Below are positions 1-8,161 of a stretch of 64,000 bases of DNA, piece after piece. The number at the start of each line of letters is the position of its first letter. The first letter of the stretch is position 1. A program made the position numbers and the translations under genes. This DNA comes from an uncultured Flammeovirgaceae bacterium. GTDB lineage: Bacteria; Bacteroidota; Bacteroidia; Cytophagales; Cyclobacteriaceae. The notes under the pieces are model-generated. The model searched no databases, was not told the DNA's origin, and saw only the letters and a list, made by a program, of their open reading frames with translations. The DNA lies in NCBI GenBank assembly GCA_937883755.1, contig CAKZYA010000011.1, positions 1 to 64,000 of the forward strand, in the 5' to 3' direction.

Positions 1-41
1 GCACTTGAGAACAAAACTACTTTTACAAATTTAACCCTTTT

Positions 42-2849
42 TCAGGGACGACTACTTAGCTCGGTCTGGATACGAAGGGGCGATAGAGTCCATAGTTCAC
101 GACCATTGGTTTCATCAAGCGCAGTGAAATAGAGAGCATCGTTGATATAACCTAATGGGCGAGGGGAGCTATCGTTGGGGCCAGCGAAAATATCCTGCAC
201 CATTCGGGTGCCTTCGGGAGTACCGTCGGTTCGCCAGAGTTCTCGTCCATGTTCATCATCAATCCCCGCAAAGAATAGGGTTCCATTAACATCAATGAGG
301 CCACCACCAGTTTCCATATCTATATATGGCTGAGTGCCTGCCTCGGTACCATCACTACGCCAGATTTTATATCCAGTACTATCCTGAGCAACAAATAATA
401 GAAGATCGTTGTATACGATGAGGTTGCTAGGGCTACCGTTCCGAATGGTGTTGCTATTACTACTTTTTGGATAAATATCCTTCACCATTTGGGTACCCGC
501 TTCAGTACCGTCACTTTTCCAAAGCTCTCGGCCGTTTACCCCATCACTGGCAGTAAAGAAAAGAGTACCCTGATAATTGATTAATTCGGCATTACTAGAT
601 AAACCGTCATCACCTTCATCCCCTACATAAATATCCTTCACCAGCACTGTACCATTGGTAGTACCATCCGTTTTCCAGAGTTCCCGTCCGGCCGTACCAT
701 CTTCAGCCGTAAAATAAATTGTTCCGTCGATCTCGGCGAAGCTGCGAGGAGCAGCACTACCAAATGGGTTAATATCACTAACGGGAACAGTACCCACTTC
801 GGTGCCATCGGTCTTCCACAGTTCCTGGCCTAATGTTTCGTCAGCAGCCGGAAAATAGAGTATATCGCTGGTAATGATAAAATCATCATTCTCGAAGGAG
901 TAGAATGAATCGCCATTACCCTCATTAATGTCTCTTACCATGCTCGTGCCTTCAGCAGTACCTTCGGTCTTCCAAAGCTCATAACCAAATTCGGTCTGGC
1001 GTCCACCGAAAAATAAGCTATTACCGATTTGCGGCTGATTGTCGCGAAAAATAAACGTTAGACCAGCACTCGCTGCCGAGTCAAGCAGAGGTTGGGTGCC
1101 TTCTTCGGTACCATTGCTACTCCAGAGCGTACGACTGCTACTGGAAGCCGGGGCATTGTAGATTAACTGTTCGCCCAGTACATTCAGACCGAAAGTAGAA
1201 AAGCTTTCCTGCAATAGAGTAGTACCCTCAGAGGTGCCATCGGTTTTCCAAACCCCCTCGTCAGTAGCGAAATAGGTTTGATTTTGATAGGCAACCGGAT
1301 TACTGTACAACCGAATATCCTCCGATTGAGTATTGATATCTTTTACTAACGTCGTGCCTGCTTTGGTACCATCGGTTTTCCAAAGTTCACGACCCTCAGC
1401 TTCGCTAAACCCCGCGAAAAATAGCTGATCGCCTAGAAAGTGAAAACTTACATCTTCGTAAGAGCGAAAGCCATCCTCTTCACCCGGTTTAGAATCGATA
1501 AGCATAAATGTACCCGCTTCGGTGCCATCGCTCGTCCAAAGTTCCCCACCAAACTCGTCAGTTTCAGCAATAAAGAACAGACGGTTATTGCCTGCGGTAA
1601 GGTGAGTAATATCCTGGTAACTGGCAGAGGTAATCTCTTTCATCAGACTGGTGCCTTCGGTGGTACCATCCGTCTTCCATATGCCGTTACCACCGCCACT
1701 TTCATTGGCAATGAAGTACAGAGAATCATTCAGGATGGCGAAATCTTCGCTGCCAATAAACTGGTCAACAGCTAGCTCTTCGGTAGTGCCATCGGCTTTC
1801 CATAGTTTGTTATTACCTCTGAAAAATAACTGATCCTGATACATAGTATGTCCGCGAACCCGAATGTTGTTTCCATCTCCGTCCAGCACGGGTTGCGTGC
1901 CTGCCTCCGTACCGTTGGATTTCCATAAATTTCGGAAGACTGACTCCTTCACGGTGAAGTACAGTACATTATTAACCAGCTCTAGTATTTCAATAACACT
2001 GCCCTCTTCCCCCTCGGTAATATCTTTGAGCATTCCGGTGGTTAGTAGCGAGCCGGTGGTGGCCCAAAGCTCGGTGCCGTGTACACCATCGTCAGCAGTG
2101 AAGATGAGCGTATTTCCTACGGCTTTAAATCGTCCAAAATTGGTTGAACCAGCCCCATCGGTTATATCAACAATCATGACCGTTCCGGCAGAAGTACCGT
2201 CAGTTCGCCAGAGCTCCTGACCGTTTTCTCCATCATTAGCCGTAAAATAGATAATATCTTGGGCTACCGTGAAGTTCTGGAGATTACTGCTAAATGGGAG
2301 ACCACTACCGGTTACATTAGGACTTATGTCTTTCACCAGCACAGTGCTGGCTTCGGTACCCTCGGAGCGATAAAGCTCCCGTCCTTTATCTCCGTTTCCG
2401 ACAAAATAGAGAACATCGTTTAGTACGGCATACCGAAGATTCGAAAAACCACTCTGAGGGCCTGGATTAAGGTCGGTCACCATTTGAGTACTAGAAGTAG
2501 TACCCTGGGTAGTCCAAAGCTCAAATCCAAACTCGGGAGTACTAGCGACGAAATAGACAGTATTTCCGATGGCAGTTAATAATCGTATATTCGAATTAGC
2601 TTCATTAGGGTTGATATCTTTCAAAAGTTGAGTGCCTACCGCCGTGCCATTGGAACGCCACAACTCCTTCCCATGTATGCCATCGTCGGCAGCGAAGTAG
2701 AACTGATTATCCGTAGTAATCCCTTCAATCTCTGGGTCAAAGTCGAAGGTACTAGCCCCACTAGTAGTGAAATCGTTGAGTAGTATGGGATCCTGAGCAA
2801 AAACTGTTGTGCTGAGAAGAGTTAGAAATATTAGAGACAATAGTTTCAT
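42..2849 (-). CDS. ELWxxDGT-repeat surface/secreted protein
   Basis: Signal peptide (MKLLSLIFLTLLSTTVFAQ) followed by about 18 tandem units of type GRELWKTDGTxxGTxLVKDI. Confidence 0.9.
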   Translation of the reverse strand: MKLLSLIFLTLLSTTVFAQDPILLNDFTTSGASTFDFDPEIEGITTDNQFYFAADDGIHGKELWRSNGTAVGTQLLKDINPNEANSNIRLLTAIGNTVYFVASTPEFGFELWTTQGTTSSTQMVTDLNPGPQSGFSNLRYAVLNDVLYFVGNGDKGRELYRSEGTEASTVLVKDISPNVTGSGLPFSSNLQNFTVAQDIIYFTANDGENGQELWRTDGTSAGTVMIVDITDGAGSTNFGRFKAVGNTLIFTADDGVHGTELWATTGSLLTTGMLKDITEGEEGSVIEILELVNNVLYFTVKESVFRNLWKSNGTEAGTQPVLDGDGNNIRVRGHTMYQDQLFFRGNNKLWKADGTTEELAVDQFIGSEDFAILNDSLYFIANESGGGNGIWKTDGTTEGTSLMKEITSASYQDITHLTAGNNRLFFIAETDEFGGELWTSDGTEAGTFMLIDSKPGEEDGFRSYEDVSFHFLGDQLFFAGFSEAEGRELWKTDGTKAGTTLVKDINTQSEDIRLYSNPVAYQNQTYFATDEGVWKTDGTSEGTTLLQESFSTFGLNVLGEQLIYNAPASSSSRTLWSSNGTEEGTQPLLDSAASAGLTFIFRDNQPQIGNSLFFGGRQTEFGYELWKTEGTAEGTSMVRDINEGNGDSFYSFENDDFIITSDILYFPAADETLGQELWKTDGTEVGTVPVSDINPFGSAAPRSFAEIDGTIYFTAEDGTAGRELWKTDGTTNGTVLVKDIYVGDEGDDGLSSNAELINYQGTLFFTASDGVNGRELWKSDGTEAGTQMVKDIYPKSSNSNTIRNGSPSNLIVYNDLLLFVAQDSTGYKIWRSDGTEAGTQPYIDMETGGGLIDVNGTLFFAGIDDEHGRELWRTDGTPEGTRMVQDIFAGPNDSSPRPLGYINDALYFTALDETNGRELWTLSPLRIQTELSSRP

Positions 2850-2890
2850 GGCTAGAAGGTTTAGTGCTAAAGCATAGTCCTAATATTTAT

Positions 2891-2942
2891 GCAAAAATAA
2901 ATCACGGTTTTCGGGTATATTGAAAAATCACGGAAAACCGTG
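2891..2942 (-). promoter_or_regulatory. 52-nt palindromic element, copy 1, 41 nt upstream of the ELWxxDGT gene
   Basis: Minus strand: CACGGTTTTCCGTGATTTTTCAATATACCCGAAAACCGTGATTTATTTTTGC. Inverted repeat CACGGTTTTC/GAAAACCGTG. Aligns without gaps to 5367..5418. Confidence 0.7.
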
Positions 2943-3022
2943 AGATGAATCTTATTGCTTGATCAATTTATCTCGTTTAAGATAAGGCCATTGGCTGAGC
3001 ACGACATAGTTCCATTAGACGA

Positions 3023-3532
3023 CTATTGCTTTACGACTTTGTAGGTCTTTGTCCATGATCCTCCTAGGTTAGCGATTAATAATGTATAAATACCGGGTGG
3101 CTGTTGGGTAAGATTAAGACGCTCTTGCCAAGAACCGTAAGCTTCTACTTTGTGATCAAAGGCTTTTAAGGAGCGACCGGTAGCATCATAAAGTGCTATA
3201 TAAAAACTTAAAGTCGCTCCTTTCATAGAAATTTCTAGTGTTTCACTGAAGGGATTAGGATAAACGCGAAGCGATACTGATATAGGCAACTCGTCAATCC
3301 CAGTGATGATACGTTCGCTCTGCTGAAAGCCTTGGGTAAGTACAATTTCCGGGCTTTCTAAAGAGATTACCGCAGCTTCTCCTACTGAAAAATCAAGCTG
3401 AATATTATTGGCCTCTACAGATGTTCCTGCTGAACCAATTGTAGAGCGTGCCAGTGACTGGGCAATAGCTGTATTCCCTCTGCATAATCCCAGAAATCCT
3501 ACGGCTAAGGTTATGAATACTATTCTACGCAT
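3023..3532 (-). CDS. T9SS type A sorting domain-containing protein
   Basis: Signal peptide; C-terminal VYPNPFSETLEISMKG...YDATGRSLKAF...GIYTLLI...KTYKVVKQ pattern typical of Por secretion tails. Confidence 0.85.
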   Translation of the reverse strand: MRRIVFITLAVGFLGLCRGNTAIAQSLARSTIGSAGTSVEANNIQLDFSVGEAAVISLESPEIVLTQGFQQSERIITGIDELPISVSLRVYPNPFSETLEISMKGATLSFYIALYDATGRSLKAFDHKVEAYGSWQERLNLTQQPPGIYTLLIANLGGSWTKTYKVVKQ

Positions 3533-3535
3533 GAC

Positions 3536-5326
3536 TTAGCGATTAGGGGTTTGTAGTACCTTTGCTTCCAAAGTTTCCAATCGCTTTAGAAGAGTGTTAA
3601 TGCTTTGCTGTTGCGCTTCAATAATGATTTGTTGTTCTTGAATGGCTTTGATGGCTACTACACTAAAGCCTACGTAATCAATGCCGTAAATATCATCAGC
3701 CTCTGAGTAGTGCACTAGCTCCGGGAATAAGGGGCTTACTTCTTGAGCCACAAACCCAATGGTTTTTTCGGAAGTACGAGCATTACGATAGCGATAGGTT
3801 AAGGGATGTAACTGCTTCAGTTGAGGAAGTACCTGATCTAAGTTCTCAGCACCCTGCTTCATACGTCCGTCGGAACTTTGGACATAGGCACCAGTATTTG
3901 CATTAAAAAAGCCTCGTAACTCACCTCCGTAGTGTAAGCGTAATGAGAATCCATGGGTGATATCCCAATCTTCATTAGCTGTACCGTCACTAAAGCGTAA
4001 CCCTCTACCCACTGACTGACCGCGCTGACCAATATGTAAGCGAGCAGTGGGGTTATCTACTCGTACCCCCACATTGCCATTGCCCTGGAAGGTCATGATA
4101 TTTCCAGTGGTGCTATGCAGTATATTTAACTGCTCAGCGTCAATATTAGAGGTATTGTACCCAGCGATAGACCAAGATCTAAAACCGGTATTACGAAAAG
4201 TAAGCCGGGCAAAGTCGTCTTCAGACTCGAAGAGGGTAAGCTGAGCACTATTAGCCGTACTATTATGGAAAATATCTAATCGTCCGCTCGGAGTTGCAAG
4301 TCCCCCAAGTGCAATTCGCCCATCCTGCCTCATGACTATTCGTGGAGTTCCGCTGTCACTACCACTTTCTTTACTAGAGAATATCAAAGCTTCTCCAGTG
4401 CTAGAACCAATATGCCACTGATCACCATTATTCGGAGCGCCAAGTTCTAAGCTTCCCTCAGAAGTATTGACGAATAAGTCTCCGTTTACGTGTAGTTGCT
4501 TTTCTGGATTCTCGGTGCCAATGCCAACGGAGCCGCCACGGGTAACTAGGGCTGGACCCAGTGTATCGCCATTGGTTTCAAATAGGCCTCCAATTCCTCC
4601 GGCCGAAGCACTCCCGTATATCCCGTAGCCTCCGGCTTGATCACTACTTCCCCAAACACCCGCCTCACCACTTTTACCCGAGCTAAACCCAACCACTCCG
4701 TGGCCAGTCTCCGCCGAACCCCAGATAGCTGCCCGGTTTACATCTTCTATACTAGAACCGTTTCCTTGGGTACCCGTCAACGCAAAACCATCGCCCGAAT
4801 TGGTATTAGCCACTCGAAGAGCAGTTTGACCTTCGTCGGCTACACTCCCCTCAAAAGGCAAGGTGAAGGTACTACTATCGTTGCTATCAGTAGTACTGCC
4901 GCTACTGGCAGCGTACAGTGCATAAGGAACCGAAAGGAAGGGGAAAGTTCCGAGATTGATAAAACCATCTCCTGCATCTAATTCTATACCAAGGTGATGA
5001 GTATCGCTCCCCCAACTAATATCAGTGAAGGTGCCAGTACCAGCTGTTCCATCCCCGATGGCCAACGTAAAGAGGCCAGTTGCGGTAGTCGTTACTTCGT
5101 GCTGCTCTTCGTATACGAGAGTGGTGGGCGTAGCTCCTTGGTAAATACCAATACGAATTATAATCTTTTGGTCAGTCAGCGGGTCGCCAGTTGCACTTCG
5201 GGCTACAGCCTGATAATTAATTGCTTGGGGGGCTTGCGCTAACAATGGAGTGATATTAAGTAGCCAGCCGAATACGATAAATAAAACAGTGAGGTATGAT
5301 TTAAGAAAGCGTAACATAGGATTCAT
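3536..5326 (-). CDS. Tail fiber domain-containing protein (S74 intramolecular chaperone)
   Basis: C-terminal SDGRMKQGAENLDQVLPQLKQLHPLTYRYRN...KTIGFVAQEVSPLFPELV...Y.IDYVGFSVVAIKAIQEQQ; signal peptide; 3 nt from the next gene. Confidence 0.88.
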   Translation of the reverse strand: MNPMLRFLKSYLTVLFIVFGWLLNITPLLAQAPQAINYQAVARSATGDPLTDQKIIIRIGIYQGATPTTLVYEEQHEVTTTATGLFTLAIGDGTAGTGTFTDISWGSDTHHLGIELDAGDGFINLGTFPFLSVPYALYAASSGSTTDSNDSSTFTLPFEGSVADEGQTALRVANTNSGDGFALTGTQGNGSSIEDVNRAAIWGSAETGHGVVGFSSGKSGEAGVWGSSDQAGGYGIYGSASAGGIGGLFETNGDTLGPALVTRGGSVGIGTENPEKQLHVNGDLFVNTSEGSLELGAPNNGDQWHIGSSTGEALIFSSKESGSDSGTPRIVMRQDGRIALGGLATPSGRLDIFHNSTANSAQLTLFESEDDFARLTFRNTGFRSWSIAGYNTSNIDAEQLNILHSTTGNIMTFQGNGNVGVRVDNPTARLHIGQRGQSVGRGLRFSDGTANEDWDITHGFSLRLHYGGELRGFFNANTGAYVQSSDGRMKQGAENLDQVLPQLKQLHPLTYRYRNARTSEKTIGFVAQEVSPLFPELVHYSEADDIYGIDYVGFSVVAIKAIQEQQIIIEAQQQSINTLLKRLETLEAKVLQTPNR

Positions 5327-5366
5327 CTTAGTGCTTGATTAGAATCCTAAAACTTCTAATTTCTGT

Positions 5367-5418
5367 GCAAGAATAAATCACGGTTTTCGGTGATTTATCA
5401 ATATCACCGAAAACTATG
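5367..5418 (-). promoter_or_regulatory. 52-nt palindromic element, copy 2, 40 nt upstream of the tail-fiber-domain gene
   Basis: Minus strand: CATAGTTTTCGGTGATATTGATAAATCACCGAAAACCGTGATTTATTCTTGC. Perfect 12-bp inverted repeat GTTTTCGGTGAT/ATCACCGAAAAC. Confidence 0.7.
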
Positions 5419-5479
5419 AGAAAAGTCCTAGTTTGTTTTCTGAGGCAAGAAAGAAGAGCTAAATAGCTGGGAATAACTA

Positions 5480-6139
5480 TTAATTGAGCAGCTTGTGCTC
5501 TACCGTGAAGCGTACTAGTCCGGCGGTATTGCGCACGTTGAGCTTGTGCAGTAAGTTTTTCCGGTGGGTTTCTACGGTATTTAGGCTGATGAAGAGCTTA
5601 TCGGCAATTTCCTGGGTCGTATACTCTTCTACAATTAGTGCCAACACCTCCTTTTCCCGACGGGTAAGTTTAGGAATATGGGTGTGAGATCGTTTGTTCT
5701 CGGGCATTATACCCTGAATAAGGGCTTGGGTGACTTCTTCGCCTAGAAAGGTTTCACCTTGGTGTACAGTTTTAATAGCCTGCTGTAAGGTTTCTTTATC
5801 GCTGTTTTTAAGCACGTAGCCTTTGGCCCCGTTACTTAGCATGCTACTAATAAAGCTGCCTTCGCTATGGGTGGTCAGGGCAATGACTTTAATGTCGGGG
5901 TGGGTGGCAGTTATTTTTTTACATACTTCTACCCCGTCCATATCAGGCAGGTTAATATCTAGCAATACCACCTGAGGATTCGCCATTTGACATTGCACTA
6001 GTGCTTCGGCACCGTTTAGGCACTTACCCACTACCTGGATTTCGTCGATATCAGAAAAAATAGCGGCAAGGCCGTCGATAAACATCTGGTGGTCGTCTAC
6101 CAGCAGGGTACGAATAGTTGGTTCCGAGGGCATTTCCAT
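5480..6139 (-). CDS. NarL/FixJ (LuxR-type HTH) response regulator
   Basis: Receiver (LLVDDHQMFIDGL...VVLLDINLPDMDGVEV...) plus LuxR HTH (LTRREKEVLALIVEEYTTQEIADKLFISLNTVETHRKNLLHKLNVRN). Confidence 0.95.
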   Translation of the reverse strand: MEMPSEPTIRTLLVDDHQMFIDGLAAIFSDIDEIQVVGKCLNGAEALVQCQMANPQVVLLDINLPDMDGVEVCKKITATHPDIKVIALTTHSEGSFISSMLSNGAKGYVLKNSDKETLQQAIKTVHQGETFLGEEVTQALIQGIMPENKRSHTHIPKLTRREKEVLALIVEEYTTQEIADKLFISLNTVETHRKNLLHKLNVRNTAGLVRFTVEHKLLN

Positions 6140-6154
6140 GATTTGGTAAACTGA

Positions 6155-8161
6155 TTATACTAAAGCGACTTCCTGCCTCACCGGAGCTTCTACGGTTACA
6201 GTGGTTCCCCGACTCGGTGCAGCGTCAATGCTCAGCATGCCATTAATGTACTTCACACGTGATTCTAAGCTACGCAAGCCGAGGCCGTCTTTCGCCCGGG
6301 CATTTGCTAGATCAAAACCTACTCCATCGTCTTCTACCACCAAGGTTAGTAATTCTTCGTGTACTGAAAGTTGTACAATAATTTCCTGAGCCTGGGCGTG
6401 CTTACGAATATTGCTCAGCAATTCCTGGACGATGCGATAAATAGTGATCTCTACTTTTTCTTCTAGTCGATCATTCATGTCGTACACCTGAAAATCTACG
6501 TGGATTCTGGTATTTTTTTCTAATGATGAGCAACTATCCTGAATGGCAGGGACAAGCCCGAACTTTACCAGCGCACCGGGCATCATATCGTGGGCAATCT
6601 TTCGTACTTCGTGGCAGGCTTCGTCTAACAAATCATTGGTGTGACGATAGGCGGATGACTTCTCCGTTTGAATAGAATCTTTCATAGAACTAAATCGCAT
6701 CTGTACGTTAGCCAGTAGGCTTCCCAGTCCATCGTGTAGGTCTTTGGCAATTCGCTTTCGTTCTTCCTCCTGTCCGGTGACCATCGCATCCATTGAGATA
6801 AGCTTCTGTCGCTGCTCTAATTCCTGAATCTTCCGTTGGTTGATCTCTTCATTTTTCTGGGTGATTAATGCCCGGCTTTTCATTCTAGAGCGATAGAACC
6901 CAATAGTTACCAATATTAAAGCACCTAATAATATGCATCCGATGATAGAAGCAATGAGAAAGGTGTTTTTACGATCTAGTTCGGCTTGTTGCACTTCCCA
7001 TTCCTGAGTGAGTAGAATAATCTCTTTCTCTTTCTTCTCAGTTTCGTAGCGGGTTTGCAGATCATTGATTTGTAGGGCAATTTCTTCGTTCACAATGCTA
7101 TCTCGTAGATCAGCGTAGGCTACGTGCGCTTGGTAGGCTTCCTGAAAATTCCCTAGCTGGTTTTGAATTTTAGAAAGTATCCAGTTAGTATCACGCAGTA
7201 CCTGCTTGGCATCAATTTCCTGACTTATCTGCTTCGCTCGCTGTGCGTAGGGCAATGCTGTATCTGCTTCGCCCGCCTGATTATGTAAAGACGCGACCCT
7301 AATTAAACTTTCAGCAATCTCTCTTTGATGCCCTATTTTTTCTCGTACTGCCAACCCCTTCGTTGCGTATTCCAATGATTGATCAGCCTCTCCTAACTCA
7401 TCGTACACCGCAGCTAAATTATTCAACTGATGGCCGATACCCCATTGGTTATCTAACACTTTGTCTGTTTCGTAAGCTCGCTGATAGTATACCAAAGCAC
7501 TATCAAACTGCTGCATTTCAAAATAGACACTACCTAAGTTCGATATACAGTTGGCTTGCTGAAGGGGCTTATCTAACTCCTCAAATATTTCTAGTGCTAC
7601 GTAAGTGAGCTCCAACGATTTCTGATAGTTTTTTAACTTTTTATGAATGATACCCATGCTATTCTGAATATCCGCTAGCATAAAGCGATCATTCTTCTGT
7701 TCAGCTAATTGCAAGGCTCTCACATAGTAAGCAAGACTGGTATAAAATTTCCCCTGAAAACTGCTAACCACTCCCATATTAAACAAAGCCTGTAAGGCAT
7801 TTTCTTCGTGACCAGTACGGGTATGGTAATTCACTGCTTCCTGAAAATAGTATAGCGATGAGTCATAGTTTCCTTCTAGCCGATGAATTAGCCCCCAGTA
7901 GTGATGAACTTTGTAAATACGAGCACTGTCTTGCATGTCATGGGCCAACGCTAGTGCTTCATTGGCATAGACATGGCATTTAGGTAGATCATTAAAAAAG
8001 TTCTCCCATAGTAACTTAGAATATACCTGAAAGCGGGTAGTGTCCGATATTTCTTGCTGAAGCAAATTTTGTAGGCTGTCAGTTTTAGTTTGAGCTTGGA
8101 TAAGTACAGAGCTTAAAACAAAATAAGTTGTCACCCCTAAGTAGCGTAATAGTTTTTTCAT
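6155..8161 (-). CDS. TPR-containing sensor histidine kinase (HisKA_3/NarX-like)
   Basis: Signal peptide, TPRs, TM segment, EEERKRIAKDLHDGLGSLLANVQ H-box, VVEDDGVGFD and GLGLRSLESRV ATPase motifs; adjacent to the response regulator. Confidence 0.95.
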   Translation of the reverse strand: MKKLLRYLGVTTYFVLSSVLIQAQTKTDSLQNLLQQEISDTTRFQVYSKLLWENFFNDLPKCHVYANEALALAHDMQDSARIYKVHHYWGLIHRLEGNYDSSLYYFQEAVNYHTRTGHEENALQALFNMGVVSSFQGKFYTSLAYYVRALQLAEQKNDRFMLADIQNSMGIIHKKLKNYQKSLELTYVALEIFEELDKPLQQANCISNLGSVYFEMQQFDSALVYYQRAYETDKVLDNQWGIGHQLNNLAAVYDELGEADQSLEYATKGLAVREKIGHQREIAESLIRVASLHNQAGEADTALPYAQRAKQISQEIDAKQVLRDTNWILSKIQNQLGNFQEAYQAHVAYADLRDSIVNEEIALQINDLQTRYETEKKEKEIILLTQEWEVQQAELDRKNTFLIASIIGCILLGALILVTIGFYRSRMKSRALITQKNEEINQRKIQELEQRQKLISMDAMVTGQEEERKRIAKDLHDGLGSLLANVQMRFSSMKDSIQTEKSSAYRHTNDLLDEACHEVRKIAHDMMPGALVKFGLVPAIQDSCSSLEKNTRIHVDFQVYDMNDRLEEKVEITIYRIVQELLSNIRKHAQAQEIIVQLSVHEELLTLVVEDDGVGFDLANARAKDGLGLRSLESRVKYINGMLSIDAAPSRGTTVTVEAPVRQEVALV

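Follow-up and report, generated by a model that had tools for sequence, protein, structure and literature searches.

Paired palindromes upstream of surface-protein genes as candidate operators of an adjacent NarL-type response regulator in a Flammeovirgaceae bacterium

RESULTS

Gene content of the surface-protein cluster

The window, i.e., the whole 64,000-nt stretch of DNA that was analyzed (contig CAKZYA010000011.1, positions 1 to 64,000), carries near its start a set of minus-strand genes for surface proteins, a response regulator, and a sensor kinase, together with two copies of a palindromic element (Table 1). The regulator combines a receiver domain (PF00072, E 3.9e-26) with a GerE (LuxR) helix-turn-helix domain (PF00196, E 5.3e-19), its closest solved relatives being VraR, DevR, and NarL. 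As in a NarL/LuxR-type two-component system, this receiver-GerE protein is encoded next to a histidine kinase of the HisKA_3 type. At its N-terminus, the fiber-like protein weakly matches (37.6 bits, below the cut-off of 60) the model named "mosaic adhesive trimer family chimeric fiber protein." A contig break runs through the ELWxxDGT gene (window 1-60; contig C61, locus L093, 1-978), whose stop at position 42 is probably an assembly artefact. Based on synteny with contig C447 of the sister species described below, the fragment with which C61 begins probably represents the C-terminal part of this gene (Ig-like, T9SS tail).

Table 1. Features of the cluster, in window coordinates
Feature	Position	Strand	Remarks
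ELWxxDGT-repeat surface protein, 935 aa as read	42..2849	-	TIGR04534, E 2.5e-237
TTTA of possible -7 box, ELW gene	2868..2871	-	+30 after palindrome, out of +26 register
Candidate operator, copy 1	2901..2944	-	upstream of ELWxxDGT gene
Copy 1 proximal palindrome	2918..2901	-	ATACCCGAAAACCGTGAT
Copy 1 spacer between palindromes		-	TTTTCAAT
Copy 1 distal palindrome	2944..2927	-	CTCACGGTTTTCCGTGAT
169-aa protein, T9SS type A sorting domain	3023..3532	-	PF18962, TIGR04183
Fiber-like protein, 596 aa, Peptidase_S74 (endosialidase chaperone) domain	3536..5326	-	PF13884, E 2.3e-9
TTTA of putative -7 box, fiber-like gene	5348..5351	-	+26 after palindrome
Candidate operator, copy 2	5377..5420	-	upstream of fiber-like gene
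Copy 2 proximal palindrome	5394..5377	-	ATCACCGAAAACCGTGAT
Copy 2 spacer between palindromes		-	ATTGATAA
Copy 2 distal palindrome	5420..5403	-	CTCATAGTTTTCGGTGAT
NarL/LuxR-family response regulator, candidate binder of the element	5480..6139	-	PF00072 + PF00196
TPR-containing sensor histidine kinase, presumed partner of the regulator	6155..8161	-	HisKA_3 PF07730 + HATPase_c PF02518

Structure of the element

A first-pass annotation of this DNA had reported an ungapped 52-nt similarity with an identical core between two palindromic stretches, and these observations are confirmed. On the minus strand, 2942..2891 (copy 1) and 5418..5367 (copy 2) align without gaps with 41/52 identical positions, and the longest identical run, CCGAAAACCGTGATTTATT, comprises 19 nt, one base more than claimed. 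Both copies contain the inverted repeat (arms 2902-2921/2924-2943, 80% complementary, in copy 1; arms 5378-5394/5403-5419, 88% complementary, in copy 2), and the direct repeat C(C/G)GTGAT, given earlier with a spacing of about 26 nt, is present in both at 26 bp. Each element is better described as two imperfect 18-bp palindromes, ATCACSG-TTTT-CSGTGAT, positioned 26 bp apart and separated by an 8-bp spacer. When up to three mismatches were allowed, this 18-mer pattern matched the window four times, exactly at the palindromes of copies 1 and 2; shuffled sequences gave an expectation of 0.14 matches, and none of 100 shuffles reached four.

Extent within the genome and the genus

A pattern search of the whole genome (G000) located a third copy on contig C61 (3467-3510). 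It has the same 26-bp palindrome spacing and is flanked by a minus-strand TPR histidine kinase gene and the gene for a 302-aa secreted protein. This second TPR kinase (L093:1438-3411, minus strand) has no adjacent response regulator and no counterpart at this place in the sister species G002, a Flammeovirgaceae MAG (contigs CAKZYJ01...). Of the two elements in G002, one separates a regulator with 89% identity from an ELWxxDGT gene, and the other separates the 169-aa T9SS orthologue from a second ELWxxDGT gene. By BLASTN, the ends of the window and of C61 meet at C447:3592/3587 of G002; therefore, all three copies are probably located in one cluster, for which synteny suggests the order kinase, regulator, copy 2, fiber-like, T9SS, copy 1, ELW, lipocalin-like, second TPR kinase, copy 3, and 302-aa gene.

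A model built from the five elements of the two species was used to search G000 to G003, all of the same genus. It recovered these five with E values of 5.5e-13 or better, as expected for its training set, and nothing else convincing in the four genomes; the next loci had E values of 0.13 (G002) and 0.38 (G000). Neither the 302-aa gene nor the element is present in G001 or G003, whose best matches to the regulator are only distant paralogues (47% identity or less). Within the genus, the element is thus restricted to the two genomes with an orthologous regulator. Pattern searches in relatives returned mostly chance single sites, at counts similar to those of a reversed control.

The idea of a genome-wide regulon, put forward in the first-pass annotation, was abandoned: pattern and model searches of the whole genome yield only three copies, all in this cluster, so the element is local. 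What stands of that proposal is that the copies are promoter-proximal. The seven generic palindromes of the class in the genome comprise three in the cluster, three intragenic ones (C36, C52, and C63), and one on C58 near a paralogous system. The latter, ATCCCTAAATTTGGGGAT (L216:5212-5229; C58:203211-203228), lies 354 bp upstream of a TPR-kinase/NarL pair and may be that pair's own operator.

Related palindromes beside homologous regulators

Homologues of the regulator were collected from contigs of other genomes with flanks of up to 10 kb (1.32 Mb in total). Homologues accompanied by a palindrome of this class occur in about ten Cytophagales genera at about 45-50% identity. The pattern ATCMC-N2-W4-N2-GKGAT had 62 exact matches in the 1.32 Mb, of which 37 fall within 500 bp of the regulator gene, a region covering 6% of the bases; a broader palindrome pattern gave 72 matches versus 0 for its reversed control. 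Near matches concentrate in one well-supported clade (25/26 rows, which are not independent because many represent close relatives), in addition to the window pair and a few others. The clade includes Algoriphagus, Echinicola, Belliella, Litoribacter, Chryseosolibacter, Fulvivirga, and others, and in four such genomes the strong matches fall at or near the regulator's own locus. The related sites are mostly found 60-150 bp before start codons, and the genes behind them encode TonB receptors, BadF-type kinases, a GHL10 and other glycosidases, and amidases.

A site within 4 kb accompanies 34/57 regulators with the recognition helix TVE[TS]HRKN[LM][LIM], versus 1/17 of the others (raw counts, relatedness ignored). 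The helix of the window regulator, NTVETHRKNLL, is of the type of the site-bearing clade, and the nearest site-less relatives carry TVESHRSxLL. In the tree, the window regulator falls outside the Cytophagales clade. No such site was found near its nearest full-length relatives (L131 and L133), and a palindrome search based on symmetry alone around the closest regulators, including these two, gave nothing consistent.

At L144, L150, L163, and L166, the regulator is followed by genes for a BadF-type kinase, a GHL10 protein, and a TonB receptor, and these Cytophagales loci look like amino-sugar utilisation loci under a NarL-type two-component system. Another type of regulator locus in Bacteroidota is seen at L155:3716, L161:6642, L172:6818, and L192:6234, where a small gene of 126-136 aa near a TPR kinase/NarL pair is preceded by related palindromes, each having a partner unit 26 bp away.

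Register between palindrome and -7 box

Among 60 non-redundant related sites, a complete GKGAT half-site is located exactly at -26 in 36, with no other offset exceeding 2, and TTTG starts exactly +26 after the palindrome in 41, the next-best offset accounting for 4. The Flavobacterium -7 box, TAnnTTTG, spans -12 to -5 (PMC9723704); combined with the +26 register, this would place the center of the palindrome near -42.5. The proximal palindrome would accordingly occupy a class-II activator position over the -33 region, with the upstream unit near -68.5.

Within the window genus, TTTA is found at +26 in four of the five elements (copies 2 and 3 and both sister copies). Here the register reads nAnnTTTA (4/5; TAGCTTTA at copy 3), compared to the consensus TAnnTTTG of Flavobacterium (PMC9723704). 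Copy 1 is the exception: relative to the sister species, its leader has lost 9 bp (AAATTTTAG) between TTAG repeats, shortening the distance from the end of the proximal palindrome to the ATG from 60 to 51 nt and shifting the TTTA off register to +30. The first-pass annotation had read the 41 and 40 nt between the 52-nt copies 1 and 2 and the respective start codons (ATG 2849 and ATG 5326) as a meaningful fixed spacing. The figures are correct, but a conserved distance to the ATG was rejected in view of the 60 nt in the sister species and the 9-nt deletion, which makes the near-equality coincidental; the conserved spacing is that from palindrome to -7 box.

A model trained outside the genus

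An independent model was trained on 44 sites, all from outside the window genus and including no window or sister sequence. In 92.6 kb searched, its four best matches were the cluster elements in the window and at L090, L091, and L093 (E 0.0097-0.14), all in register. The window match is copy 2, on the plus strand, with a spacer (TTATCAAT) identical to that of the Algoriphagus sites L151 and L170; copy 1 is absent from these four. Copy 3 is matched without gaps from the half-site through the -7 box. When the whole genome was searched, the window element still ranked first, at an E value of only 0.79, so that the result is supportive rather than decisive. A class-wide scan of 295 genomes with the Cytophagales model (E<=1e-5) gave one match, which is intragenic, and no further true site under a severe filter, which scored only 16 candidates in each genome and failed to pick up the genome of the window itself.

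DISCUSSION

The elements are likely to be operators of the adjacent regulator (5480..6139), with both palindromes bound and this one cluster activated. The shared operator postulated in the first-pass annotation thus survives as a promoter-proximal element common to the genes of the cluster, and the neighboring NarL/LuxR regulator, named there as the obvious candidate binder, is the best candidate, judging from the grammar beside homologous regulators, the joint presence and absence of element and regulator in the genus, and the recognition helix. Presumably, the TPR histidine kinase (6155..8161) phosphorylates the regulator, dimers of which would bind the two palindromes with their 26-bp offset. 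The center of the proximal one would lie about 42 bp before the transcription start, over the position of the -33 box, and that of the distal one 26 bp further upstream; the bound regulator would activate, rather than repress, promoters within this single cluster that have a putative sigma-A-type -7 box. Expected targets are the fiber-like and T9SS genes, the ELWxxDGT gene, and the gene for the 302-aa secreted protein. Weighing against this reading are the position of the window regulator outside the Cytophagales clade, the absence of such sites near L131 and L133, the E value of only 0.79 on the whole genome, TTTA instead of TTTG in the -7 box of this genus, the lost register of copy 1, and the lack of further true sites in the class-wide scan.

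The other explanations considered, i.e., a different regulator, an RNA hairpin, and plain duplication, are less likely. The first of these assigns the operator to a different DNA-binding protein, such as any of at least seven further NarL-type regulators of the genome (E <= 1e-30), the adjacent regulator being a bystander. The kinase beside copy 3 that lacks a regulator of its own would fit this, as would the half-site TCACGG, which differs from the mostly ATCCCTG half-sites of the Cytophagales clade. We nevertheless regard it as unlikely, since in many genera sites of this class accompany members of this regulator family at their own loci and, among the genomes of the genus, only the two with an orthologous regulator carry the element.

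A role as RNA, either as intrinsic terminators of the upstream genes or as structured leaders, is more improbable still. Copies 1 and 2 fold well (z -4.5 and -6.7), fit a simple terminator pattern, and follow gene ends, copy 2 at 60 nt past the stop codon of the regulator gene and copy 1 at about 80 nt past that of the 169-aa gene; perfect palindromes, however, fold well regardless of function. Copy 3 lies between divergent genes, where there is no gene end to terminate, and its palindromes fold separately rather than as one hairpin. Moreover, related sites often have no more than a half-site as their upstream unit, which is incapable of forming a hairpin, and the -7 box register places them upstream of the transcription start. 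The terminator or RNA reading is therefore disfavored. Least probable is that the similarity merely traces a recent duplication of promoter regions: copies 1 and 2 do have a common sequence just downstream (TTTATTYTTGCA), and the two ELW genes of the sister species have near-identical leaders, but the genes behind the elements (ELW, fiber-like, and 302 aa) are unrelated, copy 3 diverges outside the sites yet retains both palindromes and the 26-bp spacing, and the same grammar recurs at unrelated genes in other genera.

Beyond operator function in this cluster, the chances seem about even that NarL-type regulators of several Bacteroidota lineages share one grammar, namely, a half-site or palindrome, exactly 26 bp, a palindrome, exactly 25 bp, and TTTR, with the regulator replacing the -33 box; the surface-protein cluster of the window and the sugar-utilisation loci of Cytophagales would then be two branches. 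Few operators of Bacteroidota NarL-type two-component systems have, to our knowledge, been described. With the distances from the motif to a half-site and to a -7 box being fixed, targets can be predicted from sequence. None of six site sequences looked for turned up in the literature searched, most subscription papers being outside its scope. The candidate operators next to homologous NarL-type regulators in Cytophagales were found here, and no description of them was met in that literature.

These candidate operators of Cytophagales (Algoriphagus, Echinicola, Belliella, and others) resemble the window elements in palindrome class, the upstream half-site at 26 bp, promoter-proximal position, and confinement to the regulator's own locus. 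They differ in the half-site (mostly ATCCCTG versus ATCACGG in the window), in the distal site, which is usually a half-site only and in the window a full palindrome, and in their targets, which are TonB receptors, BadF-type kinases, glycosidases, and amidases instead of surface proteins. The operator of ComA, a NarL/LuxR-family response regulator of Bacillus subtilis, is the inverted repeat TTGCGG-N4-CCGCAA (PMC4797271). It shares with the window motif, TCACGG-TTTT-CCGTGA, the arrangement of two hexamers around 4 nt, a likeness of geometry only, as well as the location upstream of the RNA polymerase site and an additional, more degenerate recognition unit nearby (PMC4797271). The half-sites differ (TTGCGG versus TCACGG/CCGTGA), and the extra unit of ComA is a direct repeat with a 5-nt spacer on the downstream side, whereas here a palindrome or half-site takes this role at exactly 26 bp on the upstream side (PMC4797271).

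In FimS/FimR of Porphyromonas gingivalis, FimR activates the surface-adhesin gene mfa1 by direct promoter binding (PMC1974823, PMC5706477). This system belongs to the same phylum and likewise pairs a TPR sensor kinase with a response regulator (PMC1974823, PMC5706477), but its target genes differ, and the FimR paper, in which a binding motif was sought, yielded none, so that the sites are not comparable with those of the window. The window kinase contains TPR domains and scores 109.7 bits against the FimS equivalog NF053520, for which the curated cut-off is 600, and hence is not orthologous by the NCBIfam cut-off. By the tests made, the window system is a member of neither the ComA nor the FimS/FimR system. 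Through the proposed operator, a group of T9SS-type surface proteins is connected with a TPR-kinase/NarL pair, a logic comparable to the control of fimbriae by FimS/FimR.
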